A stretch of 64,000 nucleotides of DNA, taken from the NCBI RefSeq assembly GCF_000233695.2, contig NZ_CM001488.1, positions 1,742,203 through 1,806,202 on the forward strand, written 5' to 3'. This DNA comes from Desulfobacter postgatei 2ac9. GTDB taxonomy: Bacteria > Desulfobacterota > Desulfobacteria > Desulfobacterales > Desulfobacteraceae. This document shows, one piece after another, positions 18,392-63,438 of this stretch (position 1 is the stretch's first letter; every line of letters begins with the position of its first letter). A model generated the notes under the pieces. It was not told the DNA's origin, searched no databases, and saw only the letters and a list, made by a program, of their open reading frames with translations. The position numbers were made by a program, and so were the translations under genes.

Positions 18392-18745
18392 GGGGGCGTA
18401 ATGGTTTCGACGGAGATTTTGACGTCCAAGGTAGCATGTCGAGTGTTTGTCAACTCGTAAACTTGGCAAGTTTAAATATAATCGCAGACGATTATAACTA
18501 CGCTGTAGCCGCTTAAGGCGGCTTCCGTCCTCCTGACATCCTTCTTGCAGATTCAGATCAGGGCGTCGACTTTGCAAGACCGCTTTTGGAATTTCCTGGG
18601 TTCCCGAAGTTGAATTTTTCAGGATATACCGGATTGGATCCCTCCTGAAGGAGCCTTCCCGGCTAATTATAAAGTTCAGGATAAGCATGTAGAAGCCTGG
18701 ATTGATTGTTTTCGGACGCGGGTTCAACTCCCGCCGCCTCCACCA
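18392..18745 (+). ncRNA. ssrA: Transfer-messenger RNA (tmRNA)
   Basis: tmRNA rescues stalled ribosomes together with SmpB and tags the nascent protein for degradation. The 5' end GGGGGCGTAATGGTTTCGAC and the 3' end CGCCTCCACCA form the tRNA-like acceptor stem with encoded CCA; the T-arm GGTTCAACTCC is present. The tag frame runs at 18484-18516 and reads ADDYNYAVAA followed by TAA, a tag of delta-proteobacterial type. It is a one-piece tmRNA of about 354 bases directly after smpB and followed by a terminator. Confidence 0.97.
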
Positions 18746-31244: not shown

Positions 31245-31250
31245 GAGCGA

Positions 31251-31295
31251 TAAAATACCATAAACTTTCATTTTTTGAAAGTTTGTGGTATTTTA
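31251..31295. promoter_or_regulatory. 20-base inverted repeat, probable AbiEi operator
   Basis: TAAAATACCATAAACTTTCA (31251-31270), a TTTTT loop (31271-31275), and a right arm (31276-31295) complementary at 19 of 20 positions. It lies 6 bases upstream of the preferred abiEi start and covers the 3' end of DUF4091 copy 2. AbiEi proteins are known to bind inverted repeats in their promoters. A terminator role is also possible for either strand. Confidence 0.65.
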
Positions 31296-45101: not shown

Positions 45102-45686
45102 TTATTTCTTTGGTGATTTTTTGTAAAGCTGGATTTCATGTAAAGTTTTTTGTGCAAGATGATGTTGACCCATGAGCAGATAGGTCTGATACTGATAGTT
45201 TAGAAGTACCGGCCAAAGTCCGTAATATCCACCTCCTCTGCCTTTCATGGCATTGCGAACAAAATTTAGTTGTGAAAGCACCCGTTCCAGTTTGCGGTTG
45301 CGGTCAGGATGATGATATTCGAGCAACCTTGCTTCCTGGAACTCTTCTATACCCCAGCACAAATGATGGCTGAATGCCCAATATTTGCCCACGCGGTTTA
45401 ACCATTTGTCTCTTAATACTTTAAATTGATCTGGTAATTTCCTGTGTTGATTGATAATTTCTCTTTCAGTTAACCTTACCTGACAATACTCAGGCAGATG
45501 TTGCCATCTTGACATCAGTGAGGTTATTTCTTGCATAGTAGCCTGCGATTTAATATTTTTATCTGCAAGACTCACCTGGGGTGAAACGATAATACCAGTT
45601 GCAATTATTATACAACTGTGCAACAAGATTGTGTTACACTTTCTGATTATAAAATGAAGTTTTCGGATAAAAAAAATCTCAGGCAA
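45102..45686 (-). CDS. Secreted or anchored protein of unknown function in the polysaccharide operon
   Basis: The 194-residue product has a basic N-terminus and a hydrophobic segment (about residues 20-38, LLHSCIIIATGIIVSPQVSL), so it is exported or membrane-anchored. The rest is helical, with the text HLPEYCQVRLTEREIINQHR, HHLCWGIEEFQEARLLEYHH and GLWPVLLNYQYQTYLLMGQH near the end, suggesting TPR-like helices. I do not recognise the family. It lies between deacetylase and sulfotransferase with short gaps (14 and 12 bases) and is probably part of polymer export or modification. Confidence 0.6.
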   Translation of the reverse strand: MPEIFFIRKLHFIIRKCNTILLHSCIIIATGIIVSPQVSLADKNIKSQATMQEITSLMSRWQHLPEYCQVRLTEREIINQHRKLPDQFKVLRDKWLNRVGKYWAFSHHLCWGIEEFQEARLLEYHHPDRNRKLERVLSQLNFVRNAMKGRGGGYYGLWPVLLNYQYQTYLLMGQHHLAQKTLHEIQLYKKSPKK

Positions 45687-48560: not shown

Positions 48561-48726
48561 TGGGTGTAAATCAAGGCTGTTGGTTTGTGGCTCAGTATAC
48601 TATCGTCAGCTATTTTGTATGAAACTGAAATCAAAACAGCCAGCAGCAAGGATTGTATTCCCTGTAACGAAATGAATGACTATCGATCTCTGCTTGAATT
48701 GCTACAACGGTCTTGATTTACACCCA
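48561..48726. mobile_element. MITE-like element: 15-base perfect terminal inverted repeats, 7-base direct repeats
   Basis: TGGGTGTAAATCAAG at 48561-48575 and its exact inverse complement at 48712-48726 bound a 166-base element that encodes no transposase. GTGAATT stands directly outside both ends (48554-48560 and 48727-48733), as a target duplication would. The right end lies inside the flippase gene, whose last residues and stop codon it supplies. Confidence 0.85.
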
Positions 48727-50186
48727 GTGAATTTTTTAATAACTATATTAGTGATGTTTTTTTCAGGTCCTTCAGGAAATCTAAACAGAGTCCAAAACGA
48801 TATGATAAAAAATGTATAGGTGAATATCCCTGTCCCAATAACAAAGAGTAATAAAATGATACCATCTTTTTGTAAATAATTATTTAATATTGATTGACTG
48901 TAATAAACACAAATAAACATAAGGAGAGATGATAAAACAGGTCGAAAGTGAACGGATACCATTCTGCGGATAGAAATTTTCAGTTCGTAAAAAATTAATG
49001 CGTTTGATAACACAAACATTAATATCGTCGTTAATAGCACGGCAATTGCTGTTCCTTCCAATCCGAGCATAAAAGTCAACCAGAAAAGAGTTGGTATAAA
49101 GATAATCAATCGTAACAAACCTATCAGACTGGAAAGTTTGGGTTTTCCCATTGCAAGAAAAACGTACCCCGTATTGGAGTTTAGAGCCATCAGGGTACCA
49201 CCTATTGCAATATATTGAATGAGCGTTACTGATTCAAGCCATTTCTCACCAAGCACAACAGGTACCAATACTCCAGCAATAGAAGCTATTCCAACACCAG
49301 CCGGCACTACAATAAATGAGATGGATTCCATGACATTGAGATACATTTTTTTTAATTCTTCTTTATGATGCGATATTTTTGAATAGCCCGGATATGTCGC
49401 GCGATTGACATTGCTTGCCAGTTCGGTAGTCGGAAGGGTTGATATTTCCTTGGCGATTGTAAAAAGACCGGCTGCCTGGGGAGAGAGAATTTTGCCGATA
49501 ATGATTTCAGGAGAACGGGTATTAGCGAAATATAAAAAATTGTTGAACATCAGCCACTTTGAAAAATTAAACAACTCCCTCCATGCTGCAAAAGTGAACC
49601 TTGGGCGGAAACTGTGGAGTAAATAACTGTTAATGGTAGTACATCCTTGCCAGATAAGGGAACCGATAACCAGAGCCCAATAATTTCGCAGCCAGAATGC
49701 CATTCCAATGGTACAGAAAAAACTGATAATTTTTGGAAGCATTTGGTATGAAAATTCTTTGTCAAATGTAAGATTTTTTCGAAAATCAACTACACCAATA
49801 TTTCTCAGGCCATTGACGAGAAAGGAAAATGACAGTACAAACATAATCGGTTGCAGCTTCTGGTTGCCGTAAAAGTCTGCGAGCAGTCCTGAAAATCCCA
49901 TAACAACGGCGAAAGCCATAATCGCAAAACTGAAATTGAACGACCAGGCAGTATTATAGTGTTCTGCAGTTGCATTTTGTTTTTGAATAAGAACAGTATC
50001 AAAACCAAAACTCCCAAATATTTCGATAAATGCAAAAAATGCCATAATTATGGCAACCAGGCCAAATTCTTCCGGTGTGAGCAATCGCGCCAAAATGATG
50101 GTACTGATAAGCCCGATAATCCTGATACAGGCTCTAAGGGAAACCATCCATAAAACACTTTTGGCGACTTGGGTATTTAGAGACAT
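48702..50186 (-). CDS. Oligosaccharide flippase (Wzx/MOP family), C-terminus altered by a MITE-like insertion
   Basis: A 494-residue protein with about 12-14 membrane helices. The N-terminal pattern MSLNTQVAKSVLWMVSLRAC, TIILARLLTPEEFGLVAIIM and IQKQNATAEHYNTAWSFNF is typical of the polysaccharide transport proteins that flip lipid-linked oligosaccharides. The final eight residues TGCKSRPL and the stop are encoded by the terminal inverted repeat of the MITE-like element, so the native tail has been replaced; because the core is complete, activity is probably kept. 158 AT-rich bases lie upstream, possibly an internal promoter. Confidence 0.88.
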   Translation of the reverse strand: MSLNTQVAKSVLWMVSLRACIRIIGLISTIILARLLTPEEFGLVAIIMAFFAFIEIFGSFGFDTVLIQKQNATAEHYNTAWSFNFSFAIMAFAVVMGFSGLLADFYGNQKLQPIMFVLSFSFLVNGLRNIGVVDFRKNLTFDKEFSYQMLPKIISFFCTIGMAFWLRNYWALVIGSLIWQGCTTINSYLLHSFRPRFTFAAWRELFNFSKWLMFNNFLYFANTRSPEIIIGKILSPQAAGLFTIAKEISTLPTTELASNVNRATYPGYSKISHHKEELKKMYLNVMESISFIVVPAGVGIASIAGVLVPVVLGEKWLESVTLIQYIAIGGTLMALNSNTGYVFLAMGKPKLSSLIGLLRLIIFIPTLFWLTFMLGLEGTAIAVLLTTILMFVLSNALIFYELKISIRRMVSVHFRPVLSSLLMFICVYYSQSILNNYLQKDGIILLLFVIGTGIFTYTFFIISFWTLFRFPEGPEKNITNIVIKKFTGCKSRPL

Positions 50187-50344: not shown

Positions 50345-51616
50345 TTAGTTTTTGCCATCATAATTTTCAACACCATTTTCAAGCAGAGAATTTAATTCTT
50401 TTGTTCTGGCAGCTCTTGATAATTCAATTATTTTTTCCCTTTCTGGGAGGTGAAAATTCCCTGAAGTTATTTTTTTTATAAAACCGGGCAGTTTTTTTTT
50501 TATTTCTTCCTTTTCGTCTATCCTGACTATATCAAAACCACCGAGTGTTTTTAAAATGCCTGCAGTGTCTCCGGCTGGGTCTGTGAGAGCCAGAATCGGA
50601 CGTCCAGCTCCAAGATACTCATACACTTTTGCAGGGATCTGTATATTGCACACAGCTCCCTGAAGGACCAGAAGCACGTCTGCACCCAGCAATTCCTGAA
50701 TGGCATCTTTGTAAGGAATGGATTCATCTTCAAACTTCACAAGACCTTCAAGCTTTAAATGCGAAAACTTTTGTTTAAACTCATTTGAATACCCACTGGC
50801 CCGAAAAATAAAACATACTTTATCCGAATCTATGAGTCCTTCATCTCTTAATTCCGCAATCGCATGAAACAACTGGGTCGGATCCCGCTCATAACTGTAG
50901 ACAAGGCCGCTGTGAAGAATTGTCAATGGGCCATGCTTATCCTTTTTTTGGGGCGGAAAGATTTTGTCTTGAGGAAACAAGGTCTCATCAAACCCGTTGG
51001 GGATAACGGATATTTTTTGTGAAGATTTTTCTCCATATCGGTTTTTATAGACCTGGCAGGTGCCGGGTGTGGTGACTGTGATCGCAGCGGCATGTTCAAT
51101 AACCTGTTTTTCAATCCACCAATAGCATTTTCTTACAATAGGATTATCCGGATAATCCGACATTGCCATGGGATCGCGAAAATCCGCAACCCATGGGATC
51201 TTAAATAAGCGGGAGAGATGTAAACCGATGACGTGGGCAGAAGCAATGGGAAAGGTGGATATTATGGCAGTGGGGCGCCATTTACGGATAATCTGTATTC
51301 CTTTTACCGTGCCGGTCAATATCCATGACTGCCACCGGTCCGGCAGTGCCAGTGTCCGCAGATACCGGCCCCGCCATGCCAGGTGCCGGGCTGTGTCCAA
51401 AGCCGGTGCACGAATAACTTCGATAGTTTCCGGAATGGTGCTGGTATTTGAGGTGTTGACAGATTCGTAGGCCCCGGGGGTTACGGTCAAAATCTTTACA
51501 TCCCATCCCATTTCAGGCAGATAGCGGGCATAGGAAAGCATACGGTGCACCCCGCTGCCACCCTGAATGGGTGGAAAATGAAAGGCAATGATCAGCAGTC
51601 GTCTGGTTTGATTCAC
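50345..51616 (-). CDS. GT4 family glycosyltransferase
   Basis: A 423-residue GT-B protein. The start RRLLIIAFHFPPIQGGSGVH, the mid region WVADFRDPMAMSDYPDNP and VTTPGTCQVYKNRYGEKS, and the C-terminal VYEYLGAGRPILALTDPAGD place it in the GT4-like group often found in capsule and exopolysaccharide loci. It has no membrane segment. Its ATG overlaps the stop of the GNAT/FemAB-like gene (ATGA), which makes it the last gene of the tightly coupled block that begins at 61408. Confidence 0.85.
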   Translation of the reverse strand: MNQTRRLLIIAFHFPPIQGGSGVHRMLSYARYLPEMGWDVKILTVTPGAYESVNTSNTSTIPETIEVIRAPALDTARHLAWRGRYLRTLALPDRWQSWILTGTVKGIQIIRKWRPTAIISTFPIASAHVIGLHLSRLFKIPWVADFRDPMAMSDYPDNPIVRKCYWWIEKQVIEHAAAITVTTPGTCQVYKNRYGEKSSQKISVIPNGFDETLFPQDKIFPPQKKDKHGPLTILHSGLVYSYERDPTQLFHAIAELRDEGLIDSDKVCFIFRASGYSNEFKQKFSHLKLEGLVKFEDESIPYKDAIQELLGADVLLVLQGAVCNIQIPAKVYEYLGAGRPILALTDPAGDTAGILKTLGGFDIVRIDEKEEIKKKLPGFIKKITSGNFHLPEREKIIELSRAARTKELNSLLENGVENYDGKN

Positions 51617-52713
51617 GGGGCTGTCCTCATTTTTTTGAGTGTTCCAAAAATTTTTGACCGAACCTGGCTGGAATAAATTTCAAACCGGACATGCCGACGG
51701 GTTTGTCTGGTCCAGTGAAGCTTGTGGGGGTCCGGCTCCATCTGACCGGGAGTGCCTAAGAAATCGAATTCTTTTGCTCCGGAAGCAAACGCTTTTTCCA
51801 GGCATCCGTCTATAACCAGGGCGCCGGGTGACAGATCTTTGAAACGAGAGTCAAACCCGGTCTTCAATTGACCAATCCAGTCTCCCCAGTGGCAGCAGAG
51901 GCTGTAGGCAATCGGTTTGTTTTTATTCCAGAGCACATTGGCCATCAAAGCGTTTTTTTCAGCCAGAAAAGGCAGCAGCTGTGCATAATACCGGCCTTCC
52001 CGATTTGAAAAGGACACAGCAACACCAGATTCCGCTTTCCAGCTGTTGGCTTCCACAGCCACAAAAGCCTCCAGAAATTCAGAGGCCTGAGATGCAGCAG
52101 GATACCAGGCCATTTCCATCTCTTCCGTACTGGCCAGCATTTCATTTCTTTTTCGGTATTTATACCGAAATTTTCTGTTTTTGGATGCCAGCAAATCATC
52201 AAAAGTGCCTTTGAGCGTTAGATAAGGGGAGACATCCACAGGAAACTCCTGGAAACCCAAATCCTTTTCATGGCAGAGCTGTCTTAAAGATTCAGCCGTG
52301 GGTCCGTCATCGATGATGTTGGATATCATCAAAATGTGCCATTTGGGAGTGTCGGAGAAGAACGCTTCCAATAAAGCCCTGATACTGCTAAGGCAGACAC
52401 ATTCTAAATGATAGGTGACAAAATCGTATAAAAACACAATAGAAAAAGGCATTCCCAGTTTGAATCTTTTTTCCACTCTATAGGGAAGGAAACCAGCGGG
52501 TTTATCTGCATCAAAGTGAACAAACACCCGGGTATGGTCTATCTCTGTTTTTCCGCTTGAAAGCGATATTTTTACCCACCCGGGGTGAAGGGTGGGATTC
52601 AACCGCTTGTTTTCAATGAGCTCAATCCAATTTTTTTTCAGATTTTCCGGCAGAGCTGAGAATGGAAAACAATAGTTTTTGGAATCTATTTTATGTTTGC
52701 TGGTATCTTTCAT
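51613..52713 (-). CDS. GNAT/FemAB-like acyltransferase (BioF2-like domain)
   Basis: The 366-residue protein looks like a tandem GNAT fold as in FemAB enzymes: an early beta-rich half with HPGWVKISLSSGKTE, then KNRKFRYKYRKRNEMLASTE, WKAESGVAVSFSNREGRYYA and the closing DFLGTPGQMEPDPHKLHWTR, similar in shape to the FDFGRSTPGEGTFRFKKQWG text of the FemAB gene at the right end. FemAB-type proteins transfer amino acids or acyl groups onto amines. Here the donor is unknown. It stands between the ATP-grasp pair and a glycosyltransferase in the coupled block, which supports a role in amide-type decoration. Confidence 0.75.
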   Translation of the reverse strand: MKDTSKHKIDSKNYCFPFSALPENLKKNWIELIENKRLNPTLHPGWVKISLSSGKTEIDHTRVFVHFDADKPAGFLPYRVEKRFKLGMPFSIVFLYDFVTYHLECVCLSSIRALLEAFFSDTPKWHILMISNIIDDGPTAESLRQLCHEKDLGFQEFPVDVSPYLTLKGTFDDLLASKNRKFRYKYRKRNEMLASTEEMEMAWYPAASQASEFLEAFVAVEANSWKAESGVAVSFSNREGRYYAQLLPFLAEKNALMANVLWNKNKPIAYSLCCHWGDWIGQLKTGFDSRFKDLSPGALVIDGCLEKAFASGAKEFDFLGTPGQMEPDPHKLHWTRQTRRHVRFEIYSSQVRSKIFGTLKKMRTAP

Positions 52714-52726
52714 AACAGGTCAAATT

Positions 52727-53911
52727 TCATTGTTTGGTTTTGAATTTCAATCTTTTTATGATCCATGGATATCCCTTTTTAAATGTTTGCAGCATCAGGT
52801 TGTTAAATGCTGATAGAAGCGGATGGATATCGTTGTGACCATAATAGGGGAAATACGGATTTTTTCCCCAGGGGGACAAAGTCCGCTGCCTGACACAAGC
52901 CAGCAGGTAACACAACGGCTCTTTTTCCGTATCATACCAAACCACATTGTGGGAAAGGACGGGGGCAAACGTCTCGTGGGCCAGCCTCAAGGTGTAGCAA
53001 AATTCCATATACGGAAGGTTCAGACCGCCCTGAACTGTGACATCGACGCAGTATTCAGTACGACCCACCGTAGGTTCAATCAGCCACAGACGCCCGGTAT
53101 TGTCTCGTTTGAACTCCACGGCGACCGGCCCGCAAAGGGGAAGCCCCTTGAGAAACTGTAATGCATGCTGCCGGACCTGGTCGTCTTCAAAAAGCTCCAG
53201 TATCGTTCCCCTGCCAAGTCCTTTTGGGAAGGAACGTTGTTTTCTGCCGGTGATGTCGGCTAAAGGAAGACCTTTGTCCATAAAAAATGCGCAGAACTGA
53301 AGTCTGTCATCCTCTCCTTCCACACATTCCTGGGCCAGAAATGGCAGAGAATCCGGAAATTCTTTGACAAGATTGTACAGTTGGCTGAGGGTTGTAAGCT
53401 TTCTGGTTTTAAAGGCTGCAGGCGGCTGATCGGGCTTTACTATCAGCGGGAACTGCATCTCCTGGGCCTTTTTACAATCATCGAGAGAGGCAATAATCCG
53501 TGCCCTGGGATATGCCACACCGTTTTTTTCCGCATGGCGGCAGACCACGGATTTATAGGTAAAGGATGCCGTCAGTTCGGTGCAATCCGCCCAGCTGAGA
53601 AGGTAGTTTTTTGACAGCTTGTCCCAGTTTGCCGCAATTGCCCGTACGGTTTTGTCGCTGCAGGGAAACAGCACCACCCGATGATATGGAATATGTTTTC
53701 GCAATGCAATCAATGTATCCGGCAGATCTTCTGGGTTGACCCCCTGTCGTGCAAACATGGTCAGGTACCTCGACTTTGCTGCAGGGCCTTTGTCGCTTCT
53801 GTCCACCGCATAGACCTGTACCCCTTTTCGGGCAAGGGCGCGCGCCACTGCCAGGCCCTGTATGGTGAGGCCGACAACCAGGGCCGCAGAATCGGATTTT
53901 GGTTCAGGCAT
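52727..53911 (-). CDS. ATP-grasp carboxylate-amine ligase-like protein (second of a pair)
   Basis: The 394-residue protein has an N-terminal Rossmann-like pre-ATP-grasp domain (ALVVGLTIQGLAVARALARK, YAVDRSDKGPAAKSRYL) and a central ATP-grasp fold (QFPLIVKPDQPPAAF, LAQECVEGEDDRLQFC). The magnesium-binding strand is GRLWLIEPTVGRTEYCVDVT, where the usual ExN reads ExT, so the metal site is altered. Such enzymes activate a carboxylate as acyl phosphate and join it to an amine. It overlaps the first ATP-grasp gene by 8 bases. Substrates are unknown. Confidence 0.8.
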   Translation of the reverse strand: MPEPKSDSAALVVGLTIQGLAVARALARKGVQVYAVDRSDKGPAAKSRYLTMFARQGVNPEDLPDTLIALRKHIPYHRVVLFPCSDKTVRAIAANWDKLSKNYLLSWADCTELTASFTYKSVVCRHAEKNGVAYPRARIIASLDDCKKAQEMQFPLIVKPDQPPAAFKTRKLTTLSQLYNLVKEFPDSLPFLAQECVEGEDDRLQFCAFFMDKGLPLADITGRKQRSFPKGLGRGTILELFEDDQVRQHALQFLKGLPLCGPVAVEFKRDNTGRLWLIEPTVGRTEYCVDVTVQGGLNLPYMEFCYTLRLAHETFAPVLSHNVVWYDTEKEPLCYLLACVRQRTLSPWGKNPYFPYYGHNDIHPLLSAFNNLMLQTFKKGYPWIIKRLKFKTKQ

Positions 53912-55073
53912 GGGTTTTCCTTTTGAATAAAGTGTGCCACATCATGGTGATCAACTCCCGGGTATTGTGAAAAAACGGTCCCGGGTCTTTGAAGTCAAAC
54001 AGCGCGAATGTATTTGCGCGGGCAACGGACCCAATATATGACATCAGGCTGCAGCGGCCGTTGCGCACCGCACCGGTACTGCGGGAAAAACATACAAACA
54101 GGTCAGCATTGAAATGCAGCCACCGGACGGTTTCATTAACCTTTTTGTCCATATTAGTCGAAGGCGGCACGTTGTCCGTGAGAAAATCAAACATACCGGG
54201 CCGCATTTTTTCAGCCAGTGAATACTGGACCCAGGGCCGGGCATTGATTTCAATGATGTAAGGGGTGCGGGTATGAATATCAAACATGATTTCCGCTTCA
54301 CCCATGCCGTAAAAATCAAGGCTGTCCAGTATGCGCCGGGTGAAATTTTCAACCCCTGCGTCAGGGCGGGCTACCATATAGGTGCCGCCGGCGCATTGTT
54401 CTGGAAAAGACCGCAGTTTTTCGGCCACGGTTATCAGCGTCTGTCCATCTTTTCGACGGACAAAGCCGGCAGCATACTGTTTTACATCCGGAAACAGAAG
54501 GGACTGGCTCAGGGCAGGTGTAACATCAAGGGCTTTAAACTTTTTCAGCCAGGCCTGTAAATCCGCCATGTCTCTAATCTCAACCGCCTTAGGGAGACCT
54601 TTTGATGTTTCATGCTGGGTCAGTTCCGGGCGGAGCAGTAAAGGGAAAATTGGATCAGGCGTAATTTTTCCCGATGCATCGACCGTATAATCTACCGGTG
54701 CGGTTATGCTGTTTTGCCGGCACCAGGCAAGGAATCTGTTTTTATCCAGACAGATGTTCAAAACTTTCTGGTCCGGATGCAGTAGGTCGGAAAAAATTGT
54801 TTCCAGGCGGTTGCGATGGGCGGCAATGAATCTGAGCCACCTGTCACTGTCTGCGATGCAAAAAGCGGTTGATTTTCCAACGGTACGTTCAAGCTTTGCC
54901 AGTATGTATTCAGGGTCTGATTTTTGAAAGATCAGTTTTTCAGCCAACCTGGATTTGCCGGCAATACCCTCTGTGTCAGATGCCAGAATGACACGCCATC
55001 CTGCACGGGCTGCAACACGCGTCAAAGCCAGTGCAGACAAGGTGTTTCCCAGAACGACAAGGCAATCAGGCAC
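53904..55073 (-). CDS. ATP-grasp carboxylate-amine ligase-like protein (first of a pair)
   Basis: A 389-residue ATP-grasp protein, distantly related to its neighbour: a pre-ATP-grasp domain (CLVVLGNTLSALALTRVAAR, LASDTEGIAGKSRLAEK), then PLLLRPELTQHETSKG, GMGEAEIMFDIHTRTPYIIE and the canonical metal-binding ExN in IIEINARPWVQYSLAE. Unlike the second protein, it keeps the normal metal-site residues, so it is the more certain catalyst. It overlaps the decarboxylase gene by 8 bases upstream and the other ATP-grasp gene by 8 downstream, a strong sign that the proteins work together. Confidence 0.82.
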   Translation of the reverse strand: MPDCLVVLGNTLSALALTRVAARAGWRVILASDTEGIAGKSRLAEKLIFQKSDPEYILAKLERTVGKSTAFCIADSDRWLRFIAAHRNRLETIFSDLLHPDQKVLNICLDKNRFLAWCRQNSITAPVDYTVDASGKITPDPIFPLLLRPELTQHETSKGLPKAVEIRDMADLQAWLKKFKALDVTPALSQSLLFPDVKQYAAGFVRRKDGQTLITVAEKLRSFPEQCAGGTYMVARPDAGVENFTRRILDSLDFYGMGEAEIMFDIHTRTPYIIEINARPWVQYSLAEKMRPGMFDFLTDNVPPSTNMDKKVNETVRWLHFNADLFVCFSRSTGAVRNGRCSLMSYIGSVARANTFALFDFKDPGPFFHNTRELITMMWHTLFKRKTHA

Positions 55074-56517
55074 AGTTGACTCCGAACGGCATCAGTGTAT
55101 CCAGTTGTACAATATCTGAAAATGATTCCCGGCGCCGGATTTCTTCTACCATATTGCCATCTACCATTACAGCGGCAGGCCGTGGGAGCGAAAAATTGGT
55201 CTGGTTGGGTATGAAATATGCGCCGGCATCCATTACGGCAACAAGATCACCGGCCTGCAGAGCAGGGAACGGTTTGCAGCGTGCCACAATATCTCCTGGA
55301 TGACACAACGGGCCATAAATATCGAACCGGCTGGTGTAAGGTTCCTTCATTTTGTTTGCCGGAAAAATCTGATGGGTTTCATACCCTAACGGCATGGTAA
55401 TGTTTTTGCCGCCATCCAGGATCAGTTTCGGGATAGACTGTCGGGTCTGTTTGACCGTTATCACCCGCAATAGCAGCGTCTGCGCACTGCTGGTGATCGC
55501 CCGCCCCGGTTCAAAAAAGATGTGGGGCGGGTGTTTTTCAAAGTCCGGATATATCTGTCTGAATTTTTCACCGATTTTCCGGGCATACTCATCTGGTTTG
55601 GGGCAATCGTCAGGGTGCGGCATTCTCGGGGCATAACCAAGATCCGGCATTCTCAGGTCCCACTCGTCAGGGGTACGGACGGTTGGAACACCGAAACCGC
55701 CACCAAAATCATAGGTATTTATTCTGATGTTCAGTTCTTTATCAAGTTTCAGCCCGAACTCAAGTACTTCGGTGATCGCCGTCAAATAGATATCTGGATC
55801 TTTGATACCTGTTCCCAAATGTAAATGCAGGGCACAGGGATTCAGGTGTGTGTTCTGTTTTAATTTTTTGAAGGTTTCCAGGGATTCATTTGTGGCAATA
55901 TTGGTGCCGAACTGTCCCTGCCATCCCACGGATGTCACCAGTCGAAGGCCCACATCCGGTTTCCGGCCGTGTTTTTGTGCCGCATCAACCAGCCAGGGGA
56001 TCTCTTCTCTCCCGTCAATATTGATGAGCCTCACGCCTTGAGACACGGCAAGATCAATACAGTCTTTCCCTTTGCCTGGCCCGTTTACGATAATCCGTTC
56101 CGGCGGTACGCCCAGTTTCAAGGCAAGCCAGAGTTCAAAATGAGAAATCACCTCTGCAAAGGTGCCCATCCGATGCAGGGCGGTCAATACGCCCGGCAGG
56201 GGATTGGTTTTGTAAGACGTTGCCAGTTCTACAGCCGGCAGATGCTCCCGGAATGCCCCGACAAAGGTATCATAATTTTTTTTCAAGCGGCTTTTATCTA
56301 CAACATGAAGCGGGGTACCATAGTCCTGTGCCAGGGTTATGGTGCTGATGTCTTGAACACAAAGGTGGCCTTCTTCGGAGATATGACTGCCCCATAAATC
56401 AGGCGGCAGGCCTTGAAACGTCTCTGGTAATCCATTACGCCGGTGCTGATCCTGTTGCAGAAGACGTCTGATAACGGTTCTTTTTACAGCTGTTTTTGTA
56501 AATTCAAGAAGTTTCAA
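55066..56517 (-). CDS. PLP-dependent fold-III decarboxylase (diaminopimelate/ornithine decarboxylase family)
   Basis: The 483-residue protein is an alanine-racemase-fold decarboxylase. The PLP lysine is K103 in ATSYKTNPLPGV. NTYDFGGGFGVP and FEPGRAITSSA bind the cofactor phosphate, and YGPLCHPGDIVA carries the catalytic C405; AGAYFIPNQTNFSLPRPAAV is the final motif. An N-terminal extension of about 50 residues is longer than in LysA. Members decarboxylate DAP, ornithine, lysine, arginine or related amino acids. The neighbours suggest that the amine or amino acid formed is used by the synthetase and ATP-grasp enzymes and not for lysine supply. It starts 4 bases after the synthetase homologue. 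Confidence 0.85.
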   Translation of the reverse strand: MKLLEFTKTAVKRTVIRRLLQQDQHRRNGLPETFQGLPPDLWGSHISEEGHLCVQDISTITLAQDYGTPLHVVDKSRLKKNYDTFVGAFREHLPAVELATSYKTNPLPGVLTALHRMGTFAEVISHFELWLALKLGVPPERIIVNGPGKGKDCIDLAVSQGVRLINIDGREEIPWLVDAAQKHGRKPDVGLRLVTSVGWQGQFGTNIATNESLETFKKLKQNTHLNPCALHLHLGTGIKDPDIYLTAITEVLEFGLKLDKELNIRINTYDFGGGFGVPTVRTPDEWDLRMPDLGYAPRMPHPDDCPKPDEYARKIGEKFRQIYPDFEKHPPHIFFEPGRAITSSAQTLLLRVITVKQTRQSIPKLILDGGKNITMPLGYETHQIFPANKMKEPYTSRFDIYGPLCHPGDIVARCKPFPALQAGDLVAVMDAGAYFIPNQTNFSLPRPAAVMVDGNMVEEIRRRESFSDIVQLDTLMPFGVNCA

Positions 56518-56521
56518 TTTG

Positions 56522-58387
56522 CTACAGCCTGTTGTGCTTTGTATGTTTCAACCAGAGTTCCAGTATCAGATATTCCCAGAGGGTATCTCCATAATAGGCG
56601 GTTGTCTGATCTTGTTTAAACGCCTGAAGAGTCTTATCCAGAAACTGCGGTTTGATGTATTGGTGGATTTCCGGAGTTCCGGAATACAGATGGTCCATCA
56701 GCAGTTCGGACAGCATTTTTTCGGTCCGGAACCAGTTGGAGATGGGCAGGCCCATGCCGTGTTTGGATTTGTGGATAATGGCATCCGGTAAAAATCCTGT
56801 CATGGCCTGTTTGAAGATATACCGGTTTTTGCCGTATTTCACCTTGAGATCCGGGGGAATGGTGGTGGTAAAATCCACGAGATCTCTGTCCAGGTAGGGA
56901 TACCGTACCTGGATGCCGGCAGCTTCCGCCATCTGGGTGACTTTTCTCAGGTCATTGTCTGTGATGGTGAATTTCATGTCCAGGTACAGGAGCCGGTCGG
57001 TGTCATGGGCCGGGGCTGCTTTGCGGTAATGCTGTCTGGCCAGGTCGATAAAGCAGTCGGTGTTGACCTGGTTCATGAAACCAGGGGTGAGGATCTCATG
57101 GTTATCGGTTTCCGCCAGCAGGTTGTAGGAGTAAAATCGGTCCGGGTTGGGAAAGTTGGCCCTGCGGATGTACCGGGAGGCTTTGTGGAATATGCCGGTT
57201 GCCGGCAGGATCTTCAGGGCCGGCTCCAGAACAAATCTGCGCAAAGGGGAGGGTATCTTGAAATACCGTTCAAAAACCAGGTTGGTCACATACCGTTCGT
57301 TTCCCCCGAAGATCTCATCTCCCCCGTCTCCGCCCAGCATGAAGTCAACCTTGTTTTCTTTTGCCATGAGGGCACAATAGTAAGCTGCTATCACAGAGGC
57401 ATTGCCAAAGGGTTCGTCATAGATGTCGGCCAGGGAGGTGATCAGGTTCACGGTGTCGGACGGGGTGACAAAATACCGGTGCTGTTCTGTGCCAAAGGCG
57501 TTGACCGCATGGTCGGCAAATGCCATTTCATTGTAGGCCGGGTCATCAAACCCGATGGAAAAGGTTTTGGCAGGCTTGCCGGACAGGTTGGTGTACATGC
57601 CGGCAATGGTGCTGGAATCGGTGCCGCCGGACAGAAAACAGCCGGTTTTTTCATAAGGGGACAGGGGCAGAAAAACATCGACCGCCTGCCGGACGTTATC
57701 AAAGATTTCTTTTTTCCACTGATTTTCTGTTTTGGATCCATCCGGGTGGTATTGGATATCATAGTGGGTGAATGCTTTAAAGGAAGTCGGGGTGATCCGG
57801 TGGCCCTGGCCGGGGGGCAGTTTGTGTATCTCTTTATAGATGGTCAAAGGCGTGCACGCTGCCTGGAAAAACAGGTAGTGGTAGATGGCTTCCGGATAGA
57901 TCTGCCGGGTCAGGGCCGGGTCCAGGCACAGGGTGCGAATCCGGCTGGCTGCCAGGTAGTCTGTATTTTTTTGGGAGTACACCACCGGCCGGATGCCAAA
58001 GGGGTCGGTTACCACAACCATTGTTTTTTCCCGGGTGTCCCAGAGGGCAAAGCCAAAGGGGCCCCGCAATCTGTCAATAAAGCCCGGGCCGAATTTCTGG
58101 TACAGCCCCCACAGGACAGCACCGATCTCCCGGGGATTTTTGTGATTGTCCAGAAGCAATACCAGCTGGGCAAGGTTGGTCAAGTCTGTGTCATAGGCAA
58201 CAGCCCCGGCTTCGCAATGCCAAAGCCCCTGGCCGGCAAACTCATCTGATGAAGCCAGAATGACATTGTCCTCAGCAAAGGCAATTGTTTTAAAACCGTT
58301 TTGTTCCAGTATGGGCGCCAGGTTCTGAATATCGGCGGATGGTTTTTTTGCCGCAAAAAAACCGCCTTTCGGGATATGGGGTATCAT
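56522..58387 (-). CDS. Asparagine synthetase homologue lacking the catalytic N-terminal Cys
   Basis: The 621-residue protein has the complete synthetase domain: ATP pyrophosphatase loop SGGTDSS at 253-259, FSIGFDDPAYNEMAFADHAV and MLGGDGGDEIFGGNERYVTN. The N-terminal domain has the AsnB fold pattern (FIDRLRGPFGFALWDTREKT, VTDPFGIRPVVYS) but begins MIPHIPKGGFFAAKK. There is no Cys2, no HRGPD and no FNGEIYN motif, so it cannot release ammonia from glutamine. Proteins of this kind, such as beta-lactam synthetases, form amides with an amine they bind directly. It overlaps the acyltransferase (ATGA) and precedes the decarboxylase by 4 bases. Confidence 0.85.
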   Translation of the reverse strand: MIPHIPKGGFFAAKKPSADIQNLAPILEQNGFKTIAFAEDNVILASSDEFAGQGLWHCEAGAVAYDTDLTNLAQLVLLLDNHKNPREIGAVLWGLYQKFGPGFIDRLRGPFGFALWDTREKTMVVVTDPFGIRPVVYSQKNTDYLAASRIRTLCLDPALTRQIYPEAIYHYLFFQAACTPLTIYKEIHKLPPGQGHRITPTSFKAFTHYDIQYHPDGSKTENQWKKEIFDNVRQAVDVFLPLSPYEKTGCFLSGGTDSSTIAGMYTNLSGKPAKTFSIGFDDPAYNEMAFADHAVNAFGTEQHRYFVTPSDTVNLITSLADIYDEPFGNASVIAAYYCALMAKENKVDFMLGGDGGDEIFGGNERYVTNLVFERYFKIPSPLRRFVLEPALKILPATGIFHKASRYIRRANFPNPDRFYSYNLLAETDNHEILTPGFMNQVNTDCFIDLARQHYRKAAPAHDTDRLLYLDMKFTITDNDLRKVTQMAEAAGIQVRYPYLDRDLVDFTTTIPPDLKVKYGKNRYIFKQAMTGFLPDAIIHKSKHGMGLPISNWFRTEKMLSELLMDHLYSGTPEIHQYIKPQFLDKTLQAFKQDQTTAYYGDTLWEYLILELWLKHTKHNRL

Positions 58388-59328
58388 GTGCTTGCCTTAA
58401 TGAATGTATGGTTCAACTTTGAAGCAATCATACTCAGTATTTTTGCCATAAGAATGATCGTTAACAGTGACAATAAGAAATCGATTATCCGGTTGTGGGT
58501 GGGTGTCATGAAAAAATACCCGTGGATCAAATAGATCTCCAGGATACATCCTGAAAAAAATACAGCCCCTTTGTCCACCCAGTCTCTGACAGTGATATCC
58601 CGACAGGCATAAATCAGAAAAATGGAGAAAAACAGGATAAAAAAGAAATTAAGGGTTTTTATATTGAATATGAAATTCACGGCTGTCATGGCTGTAAATA
58701 TTGCAATGGCGGTAATTCTGCTGATATTCGGTGGCAGCAGGATGGCATTTTTAGCGGCCCAAACGCCGATGATAAATCCACAGGCTGTCAGCCATAATGC
58801 ATGGCCGTAAATGATGTTGCAACTTAATAAAAAAGCGGCAGCAATAAATAACGCGGTAAAAACAGAGAAGGTTTTCTGATTCATTTTTTCCAGAAATGGA
58901 TAACACAGGTAAAAGATGAGCAGCAGGGTAAAAAACCACATTCTCTCACCAAAAGGACTGGGATCCGGTATTCTGAACCAGTTTAACAAACCGTTGAGCC
59001 CGGCGATGTTGACTATAGAATACCACGACCAGATGCCGGAACGTCCCTGAATCAAAAACAGTATAAGCAGTGCGAAATTGACCACCAGCAGGCTCATGCC
59101 AAGGCGTTCTATCTTTTTTTTCCAGTAGTTTTTCCAGCTGAAATCACCGGTGTATTTAAGGGCGGTAAAATATCCGGAAGAAAAGCTGAATATCAACAGG
59201 CCCACAGCTACAGGAACCCAGAGCAGACCATATTCTTTAAAAAAATGTCCAATCATCACCATGAATATGGAAAGCACCTTGAGCAGGTTGAAAATGCGGC
59301 TGGTGTTTTGATCAATCCGGGGTGACAT
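58384..59328 (-). CDS. Acyltransferase 3 family membrane protein
   Basis: A 314-residue protein with about ten membrane helices. It begins NTSRIFNLLKVLSIFMVMIG followed by HFFKE, the conserved His of the acyltransferase-3 family, and shows PFGERMWFFTLLLIFYLCYP and EIYLIHGYFF, also family features. Such enzymes O-acylate sugars (often acetyl or succinyl) on the cytoplasmic or periplasmic face. The gene overlaps the GT fusion upstream by 17 bases and the synthetase homologue downstream by 4, so it belongs to the coupled block. Confidence 0.85.
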   Translation of the reverse strand: MSPRIDQNTSRIFNLLKVLSIFMVMIGHFFKEYGLLWVPVAVGLLIFSFSSGYFTALKYTGDFSWKNYWKKKIERLGMSLLVVNFALLILFLIQGRSGIWSWYSIVNIAGLNGLLNWFRIPDPSPFGERMWFFTLLLIFYLCYPFLEKMNQKTFSVFTALFIAAAFLLSCNIIYGHALWLTACGFIIGVWAAKNAILLPPNISRITAIAIFTAMTAVNFIFNIKTLNFFFILFFSIFLIYACRDITVRDWVDKGAVFFSGCILEIYLIHGYFFMTPTHNRIIDFLLSLLTIILMAKILSMIASKLNHTFIKAST

Positions 59329-61408
59329 TGTTGTTTGTCCTTTTGGGCAACATGGAATAGATGGTTTTGTATACTGCAGTGGTGATCTGCCAGGTTTTGT
59401 GGTTCATCACATGGTTGATGCCGTTTTTGCCAAGGGTTTCCATCAGGGCTGGGTTTTCCAGTAATGCCTGGATGGCGGCGGAAAGGGCGGCAGCATCGCC
59501 GGCCGTGAACAGCATGCCTGTTTTTTTGTCTGCAATCAGTTCCCTGTGTCCGCCGATGTCGCTGGCAATTACTGCCTTGCCCATGGCCATGGCTTCAAGG
59601 GGTTTTAGGGGGGTGACAAGCTCTGTCAGGCGTACGGAATATCTGGGATAAACCAGAATGTCGATCAGGGCGTACACGCCTTTGATACGGTGGTGGGGGA
59701 TCCTGCCGGGCATCAGCACCTGGCTGCCGATGTTGTACCGGGTTACATCCTGTTTGAGCCGGGCTTCCATTTCACCACCGCCCACCAGGAGCAATACCAG
59801 GTCCGGATGGGCGGGTGCCATGTCGGCAAAGGCTTTTATCAGCAGGTCAAGGCCCTCGTACCGGTAGAATGAACCGATAAACCCGATAACCTTTTTGTCG
59901 GACAGCTGCCATGTGTCGATCAGGTCCTGATCCGGCAGGCACGGGGTGAAGTTTTTGGGATGGATGCCGTTGAATACCGGGGTCATCTTTCGATTGTCAA
60001 TGCCCCTGCCGGCCAGGTCCTTTCGTATGCCTTCGCAGAGGACCGCCACATGGTCCACGTGCCGGCAGACCCATGTTTCCAGATATTTTACCAGCTTGTA
60101 TTTGGCTGATTGTTTTTTATAGGTGGCCTGGTCCACGCCCGCATCTTCCCAGAAGGCCCGGATCTCGTACACCACGGGCAGGCCGAACCATTTCCCTGCA
60201 ATCCATGCCGGAATGGCATTCAACACAGGGGAATGGGCATGAAGCACGGTCGGTTTTTCGATGGTGATGACCCGGGCCAGTTTGAACAGAACCATTGCCA
60301 TCTGGACAAGTTCTCCAAGAACAGGACGGGCTTTGCACGGGTTTTTTCCGGTGCGGTAAAAATCAAATCCCTCAATGGTCTCTTTTTTGGCGCAGGGCTG
60401 CTTCCAATCTTCCTCATGTTTGGGAGAGGTGAGGATCACCGGGGAATACCCCATATTTTTCTGGGCGTTGAAAATGCTCTGGCTTCGGGAGGCATATCCG
60501 TCCAGAAGGGGAAAACTGTGGTTCAGGATATGTAAAGTTTTCATGGGTGTGAGCTGTGAGGGTTGATGGTTAACGTTCCGTTTTTTTTTATAATTCGGGG
60601 GAAAGAAAAAGTAGTGGTGTTTTGAAAAATAGTAGCACAGCCCTTTGATGTGATTGAAAAAGGCGGTGTTGAATTTTAAACCCCTGGATATTTCCTGGGT
60701 GTGGTGAATGACACAGACTTCGTGAAGATACATGATGGCATGACCGGATTTCCAGATCCTGAGGCAGTAGTCCACATCTTCCGGGGAGTAGAAAATGTTT
60801 TCATCCAGCAGTCCGGTCTGGTCTGTCACACTTTTTTTCAACAGCCAGAAGGCGGAGATGGCATAATCAACGGGTATGGGGGTTTGGGATGCCGCTTTCA
60901 GGCGTTCGGTCGCCTCCATTTTCTTTAAAAAGAAATACCGGTAGATTTTACGTCCCATGGTGGGGAACCGGTCGGTAGATTTTTGCAGCCTGCCGTCTGA
61001 ATACACGATTTTGGGGACTGCCAGTCCGGCATGGTTGTCTTTTTCAAGGAAGGCCGCAAGGGCCTCGATGGTTCCCGGAATAACCTCGACATCAGAGTCC
61101 ATGATGCAGATGTAGCGGCTGTCCGCCTGTTTCAGGCCCAGATTCCTGGAATAGGTGGTGCCCATGTTGCGGTCCAGAAGGAAAAGGGTGACAGCGGACG
61201 GGAGTTTTTTTTTCAATTTCTGCAGGATATCCGGGGTGGCATCTGTAGACCCGTTGTCCGTGATATAGATATGGTAGTGAAAATCTGTCTGTGCCAGGGC
61301 CGACAACAGGGAATCCAGACATTTTTCGATATAGGCCCGGGAGTTCCAGGTCAGGATGATGAATGATATGTCGGTTGACGGGTTTTTCATGGATATGGTG
61401 TCACTCAT
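59312..61408 (-). CDS. Fused GT2-GT4 glycosyltransferase; C-terminal half XrtA-associated (Daro_2409 type)
   Basis: A 698-residue bifunctional protein. Residues 1 to about 285 are GT2 (FIILTWNSRAYIEKCLDSLL, YICIMDSDVEVIPGTIEA, FYSPEDVDYCLRIWKSGHA). From residue 289 (MKTLHILNHSFPLLDGYASR) a complete GT4 follows, with HAHSPVLNAIPAWIAGKWFG, VIGFIGSFYRYEGLDLLIKA and TPLKPLEAMAMGKAVIASDI, similar to the exosortase A-associated glycosyltransferase of the Daro_2409 family (TIGR04063-like), which normally stands alone. No Shine-Dalgarno precedes the inner ATG, so a true fusion is likely. It is the first gene of the coupled block. Confidence 0.85.
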   Translation of the reverse strand: MSDTISMKNPSTDISFIILTWNSRAYIEKCLDSLLSALAQTDFHYHIYITDNGSTDATPDILQKLKKKLPSAVTLFLLDRNMGTTYSRNLGLKQADSRYICIMDSDVEVIPGTIEALAAFLEKDNHAGLAVPKIVYSDGRLQKSTDRFPTMGRKIYRYFFLKKMEATERLKAASQTPIPVDYAISAFWLLKKSVTDQTGLLDENIFYSPEDVDYCLRIWKSGHAIMYLHEVCVIHHTQEISRGLKFNTAFFNHIKGLCYYFSKHHYFFFPPNYKKKRNVNHQPSQLTPMKTLHILNHSFPLLDGYASRSQSIFNAQKNMGYSPVILTSPKHEEDWKQPCAKKETIEGFDFYRTGKNPCKARPVLGELVQMAMVLFKLARVITIEKPTVLHAHSPVLNAIPAWIAGKWFGLPVVYEIRAFWEDAGVDQATYKKQSAKYKLVKYLETWVCRHVDHVAVLCEGIRKDLAGRGIDNRKMTPVFNGIHPKNFTPCLPDQDLIDTWQLSDKKVIGFIGSFYRYEGLDLLIKAFADMAPAHPDLVLLLVGGGEMEARLKQDVTRYNIGSQVLMPGRIPHHRIKGVYALIDILVYPRYSVRLTELVTPLKPLEAMAMGKAVIASDIGGHRELIADKKTGMLFTAGDAAALSAAIQALLENPALMETLGKNGINHVMNHKTWQITTAVYKTIYSMLPKRTNNNVTPD

Positions 61409-61715: not shown

Positions 61716-63438
61716 CCTGGATTCCCGGCATAAAATTTGCTTAGCCAACCCTTGCGCTCTGATACATAAAAATCTGCTGAGGCTTGGCCTCTGCAAACCC
61801 TGACCCAAGATCATATTTGATGACTTATTGGCCAGCAATCTTAGCTAATCCATTTTTTTACTGAACTATACTTGATTACCCATGGTCAAATCACGCCAGA
61901 TAGGCACAGTTCACCATTAGCGCTCTGCGCATAACTTCTCCATCCCGATTTTTTACCCAATAATGTGCTTATCCTGGAGAACAACGTAACCGGTACAATA
62001 CGTTCTCAGCCAATTGGGCAAACGGGTTGATCTTACCAAATGAAATGCTCCACCGCCGACCACTATATATTAAACGGCCAGCCATATACATTAAATCCTG
62101 CATAACTGTTCTTAACCTCCTTCGTGAGACTTTTTTTCTACGGTTGATCGGAAGATTGTTCTCATCCTGCTCCTCAAGGCTAATTTGGCCTATGATTCTA
62201 AGAATGTTATACGCCAAAAGAGCAAGATGGAGAATCAGGCTGTTGCTGCTAAAACGGCAACTGGGGAAGCGTTCTAACCCAAGATCACTTTTGATTTCTG
62301 AATGAAATTGTTCACTGGTTCCATGATCATGGTATAAATTGATGACCTCTTGGGGGCTCAGCCCGGCGATGGTAACCCAATAGGTCTCGACTTCAATTGT
62401 GGGAAAAAGCAGGGGCTCCCCTTTTTCTTCATATCGTTCAGTCACTTTGAAGACAATCGGACGTGGCAATGCCCGCCCTTTTGGGTCAACAGTTGTTTGC
62501 CCGACCCACACACTTTTGTGTCCACAGCGAATCAATCTAACGCTTTCAGTATTCTGGGCCAGGATAAGCCAACCATCCAAAGATTCTTTACGTAAATTGC
62601 GCTTAACCAAGACATCAACACCTTCGCATGTTTTTATTACTTCAAAATTATCCTGACTGTCATTTCCTGAATCAAGACGGATAAGAAGAGGTTCCTGGGT
62701 AATCTGCCTGGTTAATTTTAATATTTCTTGAATGAATTCCGGGGTGTTTTTTTGACAATGCTGGCTGCCTTCTCTAAGCTCTACATTGATTAAGTATCCT
62801 TCAGTTCCTAAATATCCGAACATTGGTGCATAGCCATCACAGCCTTTGTATGTCCTGGAAACTCCCTCTTTTTCGTTTTTGAATTGTCAAAAGGGCTAAC
62901 GTCCAGATCTAAGGGAATATAATTGCCGACACTCGTCTGAACCGGTGAAATGGCGGGTGCTTTGCCTCGAATCATTTCAACTGAAGCCTCCTTGATAAGT
63001 TCATTGGCAGATTCCCCGATCAGGTCAATGCGTTCACGCAATGTTGATTGAGAAGGACAATTGCTGATTCCCAGAGATTGTGTAAAGAAAAATGGATCCT
63101 GCCTGAAAATTTCAATAGCGATATAGTCTGGCTTACCAACACAAATAAGTCCCAACATGGACGAAAGGATCTCTCCATGAGAAATATTAGGATCAACACA
63201 ATGTACATCCGGTAAATTTTTGAACCGCTGGGCAAAATTAATCGACTTAAGCAATGCACCTACAGGGAGCAATCCGCTTTGACTGACAAGGTTTTCATTT
63301 CCATGTTTTACATTGATAGTGGTCGGCATCGGTCTTCACCTCCGAAGTGAATGTTTTTTTAATGCCATTGTATTAATTTTATATTAAAATTTCAATATGT
63401 TATAATTAAAAAAGCAATCTTTATGCCGCTAACTCAGG
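61716..63438 (-). mobile_element. IS1380-family insertion sequence (about 1.72 kb)
   Basis: The ends are imperfect inverted repeats. The left end starts CCTGGATTCCCGGCATAAA at 61716, and the right end read inward from 63438 starts CCTGAGTTAGCGGCATAAA; both continue to a matching TTGC. The element carries one transposase gene on the minus strand, split by a frame change. Length and content fit the IS1380 family. I see no exact short target duplication at the ends, so the insertion may be old or one flank rearranged. It separates the FemAB gene from the glycan operon. Confidence 0.88.
61969..63329 (-). CDS. IS1380-family transposase, two frames joined by a possible -1 shift
   Basis: The first frame (63329-62808) gives MPTTINVKHGNENLVSQSGL to LDLDVSPFDNSKTKKRE. 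The second (ending 61969) includes DGYAPMFGYLGTEGYLINVE, LREGSQHCQKNTPEFIQEIL, LIRLDSGNDSQDNFEVIKTC and NLYHDHGTSEQFHSEIKSDL, all typical of IS1380 DDE transposases. A -1 shift on the sequence ACG AAA AAG AGG (near 62873) reads NSKTKKEGVSRTYKGCDGYA, exactly the family text. This may be programmed slippage or a lost base. Confidence 0.85.

Follow-up and report, generated by a model that had tools for sequence, protein, structure and literature searches.

A Candidate Amide-Forming Gene Set with a Glutaminase-Dead Synthetase in an Exosortase-Associated Exopolysaccharide Locus of Desulfobacter postgatei 2ac9

The window analyzed here is a 64-kb stretch of Desulfobacter postgatei 2ac9 DNA, and its coordinates count from the first base of that stretch. 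Between 50345 and 59328 it carries a run of seven genes, of which a synthetase homologous to AsnB and lacking Cys2 (Cys-less), a fold-III pyridoxal phosphate (PLP) decarboxylase and an ATP-grasp ligase (ATP-grasp 1) form a core that recurs in unrelated genomes, in several of them within XrtA-type loci. An acyltransferase 3 (AT3), a second ATP-grasp-like protein (ATP-grasp 2) and a GNAT/FemAB-like protein are accessory. Judging from the sequences, we consider it about evenly balanced whether this module forms an amide between an amine or amino acid and a uronic acid in an exosortase-associated exopolysaccharide (EPS). The set of glutaminase-dead synthetase, decarboxylase and ATP-grasp enzyme appears to be new, while the amide-decorated uronic-acid polysaccharide is known. 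Below, fetched loci are labelled L and surveyed genomes G, each with three digits.

Enzymes of the core

The synthetase (621 aa, 56522-58387, minus strand) matches the Pfam families Asn_synthase and GATase_7. It had been predicted to be Cys-less, and this is correct, as residue 2 is isoleucine and a hidden Cys-bearing start is ruled out by a stop codon that lies in frame four codons upstream. The AsnB homologue has a dead glutaminase, with Cys2 and the RLSIID, NGE and SDxE motifs all lost, while the ATP-site motifs SGGTDSS and GDGGDE are intact. Its scores fall under the cut-offs of both the glutamine-hydrolysing asparagine synthetase family TIGR01536 (229.6, cut-off 267.1) and the WbpS type TIGR03108 (287.1, cut-off 816.9). 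Cys2 and the three motifs are absent from all 13 aligned relatives of the Cys-less type, whereas Cys2 is kept in 19/19 sequences of the other type and NGE in 18/19 (L155 has NGA). A further 29 Cys-less-type sequences, from a survey that was not seeded on the decarboxylase, have neither RLSIID nor NGE; Cys2 status was read in the 13 and 19 sequences only, the N-terminal columns of the 29-sequence alignment being misaligned. The Cys2 column of the 13 sequences holds Thr, Ser, Pro, Leu or Lys, and therefore no conserved substitute nucleophile takes the place of Cys2. In the tree, the 42 sequences of the Cys-less type group separately from the 19 of the Cys2 type (support 0.998), and their clade has the signature D[NSD]D[LIF]xKV, which reads DNDLRKV in the window protein.

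The AlphaFold2 model of the synthetase has a pLDDT of 87.7, low at residues 1-7 and 69-82, and its fold matches are TsnB9 hydroxyamidotransferase, AsnB, beta-lactam synthetase and carbapenam synthetase. AsnB-like proteins without Cys2, such as beta-lactam synthetase, use an amine instead of glutamine-derived ammonia. The hallmarks of these amine-using enzymes, i.e., the AsnB fold, a conserved ATP/PPi loop and a dead glutaminase, are all found in the window protein. From model and motifs, we expect an adenylating amide synthetase with an AsnB fold that is unable to use glutamine.

The adjacent decarboxylase (483 aa, 55066-56517, minus strand; Pfam Orn_Arg_deC_N and Orn_DAP_Arg_deC) contains the PLP lysine (SYKTN), GGGFG, EPGR and the catalytic Cys (GPLC). 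Fold-III PLP decarboxylases are defined by these elements, namely the PLP lysine, GGG, EPGR and the Cys of the active site. The protein scores 225.3 bits against LysA (TIGR01048, cut-off 297.9) and 112.8 against the XrtA-associated decarboxylase TIGR03099 (cut-off 478.45). The residue after the catalytic Cys is His in the window decarboxylase (GPLCHPGD) and Glu in DapDC-like relatives, and in the close clade of the window protein (support 0.952, 16 full sequences) 15 sequences have His there and one has Tyr. The structures of DapDC and ornithine decarboxylase show that the residue at this position recognizes the far end of the substrate. Given the replacement of Glu by His or Tyr, diaminopimelate is probably not the substrate.

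These data also bear on whether housekeeping lysine or polyamine genes simply lie by chance in an EPS locus, which we regard as highly improbable. Relatives on Nitratidesulfovibrio vulgaris plasmids are annotated as diaminopimelate decarboxylase, and the best LysA candidate of the window genome, which lies elsewhere, is itself just under the LysA cut-off (293.7). Nevertheless, that candidate scores higher than the window gene, the window gene has exchanged Glu for His, and none of the 33 DapDC-like genes in our loci has an ATP-grasp neighbor. The objection that the decarboxylase is merely the housekeeping LysA is thereby ruled out. Two more fold-III decarboxylase homologues are found in the window genome at 1712759-1713883 and 2355163-2356230 (G000:C1). 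A separate decarboxylase group without the catalytic Cys (GxxPSPMD) occurs in Gemmatimonadota and Myxococcota (L093, L094, L096, L097 and L130), with no ATP-grasp gene within the fetched stretches.

Neither ATP-grasp protein matches Pfam at E<=0.001, and the NCBIfam models PRK12767/PRK06849 give weak matches far below their cut-offs (best 1.9e-11 and 7.7e-7). The structure model of ATP-grasp 1 (389 aa, 53904-55073, minus strand) has a pLDDT of 91.0. An ATP-grasp L-amino acid ligase, 15% identical, heads its matches in the PDB, the first 50 of which also include PurK, biotin carboxylases and PylC. In addition to the fold, the metal-binding E-x-N of ATP-grasp amino acid ligases such as BL00235 and PylC is present as EIN within EINARPWVQY, a motif conserved as E[IV]N[AP]RPWxQY in six of seven aligned sequences, L070 being the deviating one. 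ATP-grasp 1 is thus an ATP-grasp enzyme, for which amino acid ligation is a predicted function. ATP-grasp 2 (394 aa, 52727-53911, minus strand) is 26% identical to ATP-grasp 1 over 261 residues (E 1.9e-4). The original prediction of two distinct ATP-grasp ligases therefore stands for the first, which has a confident model, while the second rests on this distant likeness and the weak profile matches.

Recurrence of the core and of the synthetase alone

A genome scan that used only the window decarboxylase as query retrieved no relative, while a three-row decarboxylase alignment, run against genome contigs, yielded 79 loci. The close decarboxylase clade comprises 16 genomes (L061-L074, L081 and L098), from Proteobacteria plus one each titled Acidobacteria, Gemmatimonadetes and Gemmataceae. 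With whole-genome search thresholds of >=400 bits for ATP-grasp 1 and >=600 bits for the Cys-less synthetase, the former was found in 14/16 and the latter in 11/16 of these genomes, compared to 0/5 for both in the five genomes with more distant decarboxylases (L075-L079). On the full counts, Fisher's test gave p = 0.001 for ATP-grasp 1 and p = 0.012 for the synthetase, uncorrected for kinship. Six of the 14 genomes (G359, G360, G361, G362, G363 and G365) had supplied rows to the ATP-grasp 1 alignment and four of the 11 (G356, G359, G364 and G365) to the synthetase alignment; after leaving out the row-supplying genomes, the counts were 8/10 and 7/12, respectively.

The core genes are also physically associated. 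In 9 of the 11 genomes the synthetase and ATP-grasp 1 genes are on one contig, and in seven they are at most 1.8 kb apart. L066, L069 and L074 have the synthetase gene immediately before that of the decarboxylase, as in the window. The contig of L062 and L187 holds the decarboxylase, an exosortase, a Cys2 AsnB, a Cys-less AsnB, ATP-grasp 1 and a GT4 relative, and the locus of Cognatazoarcus halotolerans HKLI-1 (L069) also encodes a PEP-CTERM protein and a second ATP-grasp. Across the locus set, 16/36 non-DapDC decarboxylases (4/15 in the close clade and 12/21 among the others) have an ATP-grasp gene no more than 500 bp away, compared with 0/33 DapDC-like ones. Four of these 16 ATP-grasps are profile seeds (L071, L072, L073 and L103, the L103 genome being that of seed L045), leaving 12 non-seed cases. 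Three short and seven Cys-lacking decarboxylases, none with an ATP-grasp, were set apart before this count, and the loci are of unequal length, many being ended by contig ends (L081, of the close clade, holds a partial decarboxylase). A related run on the plasmid of N. vulgaris RCH1, with an exosortase some 6.5 kb away, consists of AT3, an HGSNAT-like protein, ATP-grasp, a decarboxylase (34% identity), GNAT/FemAB, a PaaK-like protein and PrsK. In the cyanobacteria Leptolyngbya/Adonisia (L080, L089 and L105) there is a pair of a decarboxylase with GPICHMGD and an ATP-grasp gene 17-206 bases on.

The accessory genes follow another pattern. With the small profiles, L092 was the only locus to show AT3 near a decarboxylase, and there it is a row of its own two-row profile and has no Pfam match; by Pfam, AT3 was also found in N. 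vulgaris. GNAT-like proteins occur in a minority of loci (L075, L088, L091, L085 and L190) and near a Cys-less AsnB without decarboxylase (L240, L244, L245, L252 and L254), and a second ATP-grasp was found only in L069, L092 and, without decarboxylase, L049; the small AT3, GNAT and ATP-grasp 2 profiles have low sensitivity. GT4 relatives (34-42% identity) are near the core in L068, L069, L074 and L098. All seven genes as one conserved unit was rejected, since AT3, ATP-grasp 2 and GNAT are untied from the core in most loci. Thus, the conserved co-occurrence expected by the original prediction holds for the core in unrelated genomes and fails for the five families as one unit. The label GNAT/FemAB is likewise partly retained: the GNAT part is backed by PF13480, and the FemAB part is weak, as PF13480 is the sole match of the window protein, while two GNAT relatives (L288 and L085) match the FemAB family PF02388. 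A genome of the same taxonomic order as the window (G055) has, at L049:6439-11202, a run made up of a Cys2 AsnB gene, a tandem pair of ATP-grasp genes and a gene for a GNAT protein, with no decarboxylase.

Several observations weigh against binding these genes into a single uronic acid-amidating module. Three of the 16 close-clade genomes (G360, G361 and G363) have ATP-grasp 1 without a Cys-less AsnB, and the L070 ATP-grasp, among those three genomes, is only 20% identical to that of the window and is itself an alignment row. The 11 genomes with the complete trio are all represented by Proteobacteria contigs, so that, window included, the trio is known from two phyla in total, the window organism belonging to Thermodesulfobacteriota. 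Only 4/15 close-clade loci have an ATP-grasp gene no more than 500 bp from that of the decarboxylase. Among 59 related genomes searched for ATP-grasp 1, only weak paralogues were found outside the organism's own genome, and the 18 of the same genus have no real orthologue (best E 3.5e-9, 23% identity). A relative of the nucleotide-sugar dehydrogenase of the window genome is close in one and weak in two of the 71 loci searched. Finally, the Cys-less synthetase (>=550 bits) is present in at least 54/369 genomes of the class of G359, G359 included, a lower bound as at most three candidates were scored per genome. The other 53 synthetase genomes contain neither the close-clade decarboxylase (best 286 bits) nor ATP-grasp 1 (best 88 bits), and TIGR03099 is over cut-off in 23/53 of them (G465 has two further partial pieces). 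Searching plasmids with ATP-grasp 1 turned up Priestia paralogues, and in the one record examined no decarboxylase or AsnB was annotated alongside.

The amine therefore need not come from this decarboxylase, and a Cys-less AsnB that always needs the decarboxylase is unsupported. Both genes were also missing from 27 control genomes (best 275 bits for the decarboxylase and 133 bits for ATP-grasp 1); these 27, like the 15 used below, were hand-picked from survey genomes without a synthetase match, with several small ones left out. TIGR03099 is over cut-off in 5/12 genomes with a close-clade decarboxylase and a Cys-less AsnB, though not in the window genome, and in 1/15 controls. The difference between 23/53 and 1/15 (p 0.012) is uncorrected for kinship, and shared XrtA context is an obvious confounder. 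Twenty loci of the synthetase-only genomes were fetched. A relative of the window's TIGR04063 glycosyltransferase (>=300 bits) is found in 9/20 and a second AsnB in the Cys2-type score range in 11/20, with an end fragment in L238 as one extra, uncounted case; from the same loci, one tested ligase exceeds the TIGR03097 cut-off, and one decarboxylase exceeds that of TIGR03099. The Cys-less synthetase thus looks like a more general enzyme of loci of this kind, for which decarboxylase plus ATP-grasp 1 would be one partner set.

This wider distribution could also mean that the Cys-less AsnB is an ammonia-only or partner-fed uronamide synthetase acting with the Cys2 paralogue, while the decarboxylase and ATP-grasp belong to a separate branch, e.g., for an aminoacyl or peptide side chain. 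We consider this a possible but rather doubtful explanation. It would account for the 53 genomes that have the Cys-less enzyme and never the decarboxylase, and for the Cys2-type and Cys-less paralogues found together in the window, L195, L196, L241 and L242, or on one contig in G352, G359 and G364. However, ATP-grasp 1 accompanies the Cys-less AsnB in 11/11 genomes with a close-clade decarboxylase and in 0/53 without it, and position 2 has no conserved substitute nucleophile.

Locus surroundings and proposed chemistry

The open reading frames of the seven-gene, one-strand block were found at precisely the coordinates first claimed, all on the minus strand, with junctions in the order AT3 to GT4 of -4, +4, -8, -8, +13 and -4 bases. 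Besides the enzymes above, it comprises AT3 (58384-59328; Pfam Acyl_transf_3), the GNAT/FemAB-like acyl- or aminoacyl-transferase (366 aa, 51613-52713; PF13480, Acetyltransf_6) and a GT4 glycosyltransferase (50345-51616; Pfam Glyco_trans_4_4). AT3 is overlapped by 17 bases by a GT2-GT4 fusion gene (59312-61408, minus strand), the C-terminal half of which passes the cut-off of the XrtA-system glycosyltransferase model TIGR04063. Due to this overlap, the transcription unit probably begins further upstream than AT3, and thus upstream of the block. An IS1380-family transposase in two overlapping frames (61969-63329) separates the GT2-GT4 gene from an XrtA FemAB-type gene (TIGR03019-like), which begins at 63494 and runs on past the window edge; the split transposase between EPS genes indicates that a mobile element has entered the locus.

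On the other side of the block are genes for an MOP/Wzx-type flippase (48702-50186; 215.2 bits to NF007773, cut-off 273), a polysaccharide deacetylase (44161-45087), relatives of which (~40%) lie near core genes in L069 and L098, a Wzy-type polymerase/ligase (41655-42977; Wzy_C) and a Cys2-bearing AsnB paralogue of the WbpS/TIGR03108 type (39697-41667; 798.9 bits, cut-off 816.9), a predicted uronamide former, all on the minus strand. Further glycosyltransferases also surround the block. The assignment to an XrtA-type locus is supported, with TIGR03006, TIGR03013, TIGR04063 and TIGR02602 all over cut-off in this genome. The exosortase (TIGR02602), a deacetylase (TIGR03006) and a glycosyltransferase (TIGR03013), each over cut-off, lie beyond the window edge. 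The exosortase scores 199.9 on the XrtA-specific TIGR03109 (cut-off 208) and gains more bits on the XrtW and XrtD models, yet is below those cut-offs too. A UDP-GlcNAc 2-epimerase and a nucleotide-sugar dehydrogenase (TIGR03026), each over cut-off, are also encoded beyond the window edge as uronic-acid precursor genes. Judged by these profile matches, the locus is probably of the XrtA type and able to make a UDP-HexNAc-uronic acid.

Other features of the window were noted in passing. A small gene at 45102-45686 was compared to five TPR proteins of related loci and matched that of L238 (E 9e-10), the other four being unconvincing. An AbiEii toxin gene (PF08843) with an AbiEi-like partner below cut-off (29750-31271) is a likely type IV toxin-antitoxin system beside the EPS locus, and several one-strand frames at 31268-34184 (31268, 31788, 32928 and 33558) appear by eye to be pieces of one or more broken genes. 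A tmRNA gene with the tag ADDYNYAVAA is found at 18392-18745.

In the proposed chemistry, the product of the locus would be an exosortase-associated EPS containing uronic acid. The Cys2-bearing paralogue would form ordinary uronamides using glutamine ammonia, and the Cys-less synthetase would adenylate the same kind of carboxylate and take another amine. Since only the glutamine half has been lost, the same carboxylate chemistry with a different amine is expected, as for beta-lactam synthetase. The decarboxylase would supply the amine, either by decarboxylation of a free amino acid or after amino acid ligation, the ATP-grasp enzyme would form the other amide bond, and the GNAT/FemAB-like and AT3 proteins may add optional further groups. 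The presence of two or three ligases suggests at least two amide bonds and perhaps a side chain of the aminoacyl type. With regard to the initial proposal of a decarboxylase-derived amine that is activated and amide-linked on the glycan, the identities of the AsnB, the decarboxylase and the locus as well as the recurrence of the core hold, and we infer the substrates and the order of steps. A broader version is tentative: widespread glutaminase-dead WbpS relatives may place organic amines or amino acids on exosortase-linked uronic acids as N-substituted uronamides, with one branch using the new fold-III decarboxylase and ATP-grasp pair. There is a very slim chance that an amine-bearing sugar would serve as the nucleophile for exosortase attachment of PEP-CTERM proteins.

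The decarboxylase/ATP-grasp pair might instead make a carrier-bound or free small molecule, in the style of BtrJ/BtrK or FslC, and not decorate a polysaccharide. The window decarboxylase matches the FslC and DokD profiles and BtrK in the PDB, and in L046 the gene beside the pair resembles, by eye, a transporter/peptidase fusion, although two glycosyltransferase-like genes are at most 8 kb away. In contrast, the core lies among glycosyltransferases, Wzx/Wzy, exosortase or polysaccharide deacetylase genes in the window, L062, L069, L098, L187 and L288, and no carrier protein was noticed beside the core genes, with no search aimed at one. We therefore find a small-molecule product unlikely.

Polysaccharide decoration by the module would provide a testable chemical function for genes automatically annotated as asparagine synthetase, diaminopimelate decarboxylase and carbamoyl-phosphate-synthase-like, and the predicted decoration, which is apparently undescribed, would belong to a type of locus that has been tied to flocs and biofilms. 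As the synthetase is present in at least 54/369 genomes, a single enzyme assay would be informative for many genomes. Culturable carriers are C. halotolerans, with the whole core, and N. vulgaris, with the related decarboxylase and ATP-grasp, GNAT and acyltransferase.

Comparison with known systems

Beta-lactam synthetase, carbapenam synthetase and the lasso-peptide cyclases have a dead glutaminase, and an amine replaces glutamine ammonia. These three kinds of enzyme close rings within one substrate and are encoded in natural-product clusters. The window synthetase has the AsnB fold in common with beta-lactam and carbapenam synthetases, as indicated by the fold match of its model, but sits in an EPS locus. 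A fold-III decarboxylase acting with an ATP-dependent ligase is known from butirosin (BtrJ/BtrK) and rhizoferrin (FslC) synthesis, where the substrates are acyl-carrier-bound or siderophore intermediates and decarboxylation takes place after amino acid ligation. The TIGR03099 decarboxylase is also a fold-III PLP enzyme of XrtA loci, and the window protein, with 112.8 against 478.45, is of a different type; both types are present in G351, G352, G357, G359 and G366.

Several AsnB genes in one EPS locus have precedents in floc-forming bacteria. In Zoogloea resiniphila and Aquincola, two asparagine synthetase genes belong to an EPS cluster that is highly conserved, and floc formation is under RpoN1 control in Azoarcus halotolerans (PMC9012009), which is the older name of the L069 species C. 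halotolerans in the NCBI taxonomy. Either asnB or asnH is needed for flocs according to another study quoted in PMC7662799. We liken these clusters to the window by description only, from the parts of the sources consulted. A Rubrivivax cluster syntenic with that of Thauera MZ1T has three asparagine synthase genes, one of which is named without "glutamine hydrolyzing" (PMC3684757). A term look-up in the available text of Haft 2006 (PMC1569441) returned none of the five gene families, and the sections consulted of PMC9850573 and PMC4784049 have nothing on these genes except a deacetylase required for Thauera flocs. The gene set was not found described in titles and abstracts of the literature, mostly open-access.

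The nearest known relatives of the proposed chemistry are the uronamide synthetases and the amidated capsules. TIGR03108 (eps_aminotran_1) takes in WbpS and WbqG, which are linked to uronamide synthesis, and deletion of the Porphyromonas gingivalis gene abolished the uronamide (PMC7468200, as far as consulted). A Helicobacter pullorum wbpS mutant was interpreted by its authors as fitting a uronamide role (PMC6025236, in the part consulted). These enzymes resemble the window synthetase in the AsnB fold, the polysaccharide locus and the likely uronic-acid carboxylate target, and differ in that the Cys-less enzyme, far under the TIGR03108 cut-off, has lost the whole glutaminase site. In the capsule of Campylobacter jejuni, glucuronic acid (GlcA) is amidated with serinol phosphate or ethanolamine phosphate by a TupA-like ATP-grasp domain (PMC11800379). 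Compared by description only, from the portion of this source consulted, which mentions no AsnB homologue, Cj1435-Cj1438 differ from the window in that the TupA-like ATP-grasp performs the amidation. The likeness is that an ATP-dependent ligase amidates the uronic acid of a surface polysaccharide, there with an amine phosphate, and N-substituted uronamides are thus known on surface polysaccharides.

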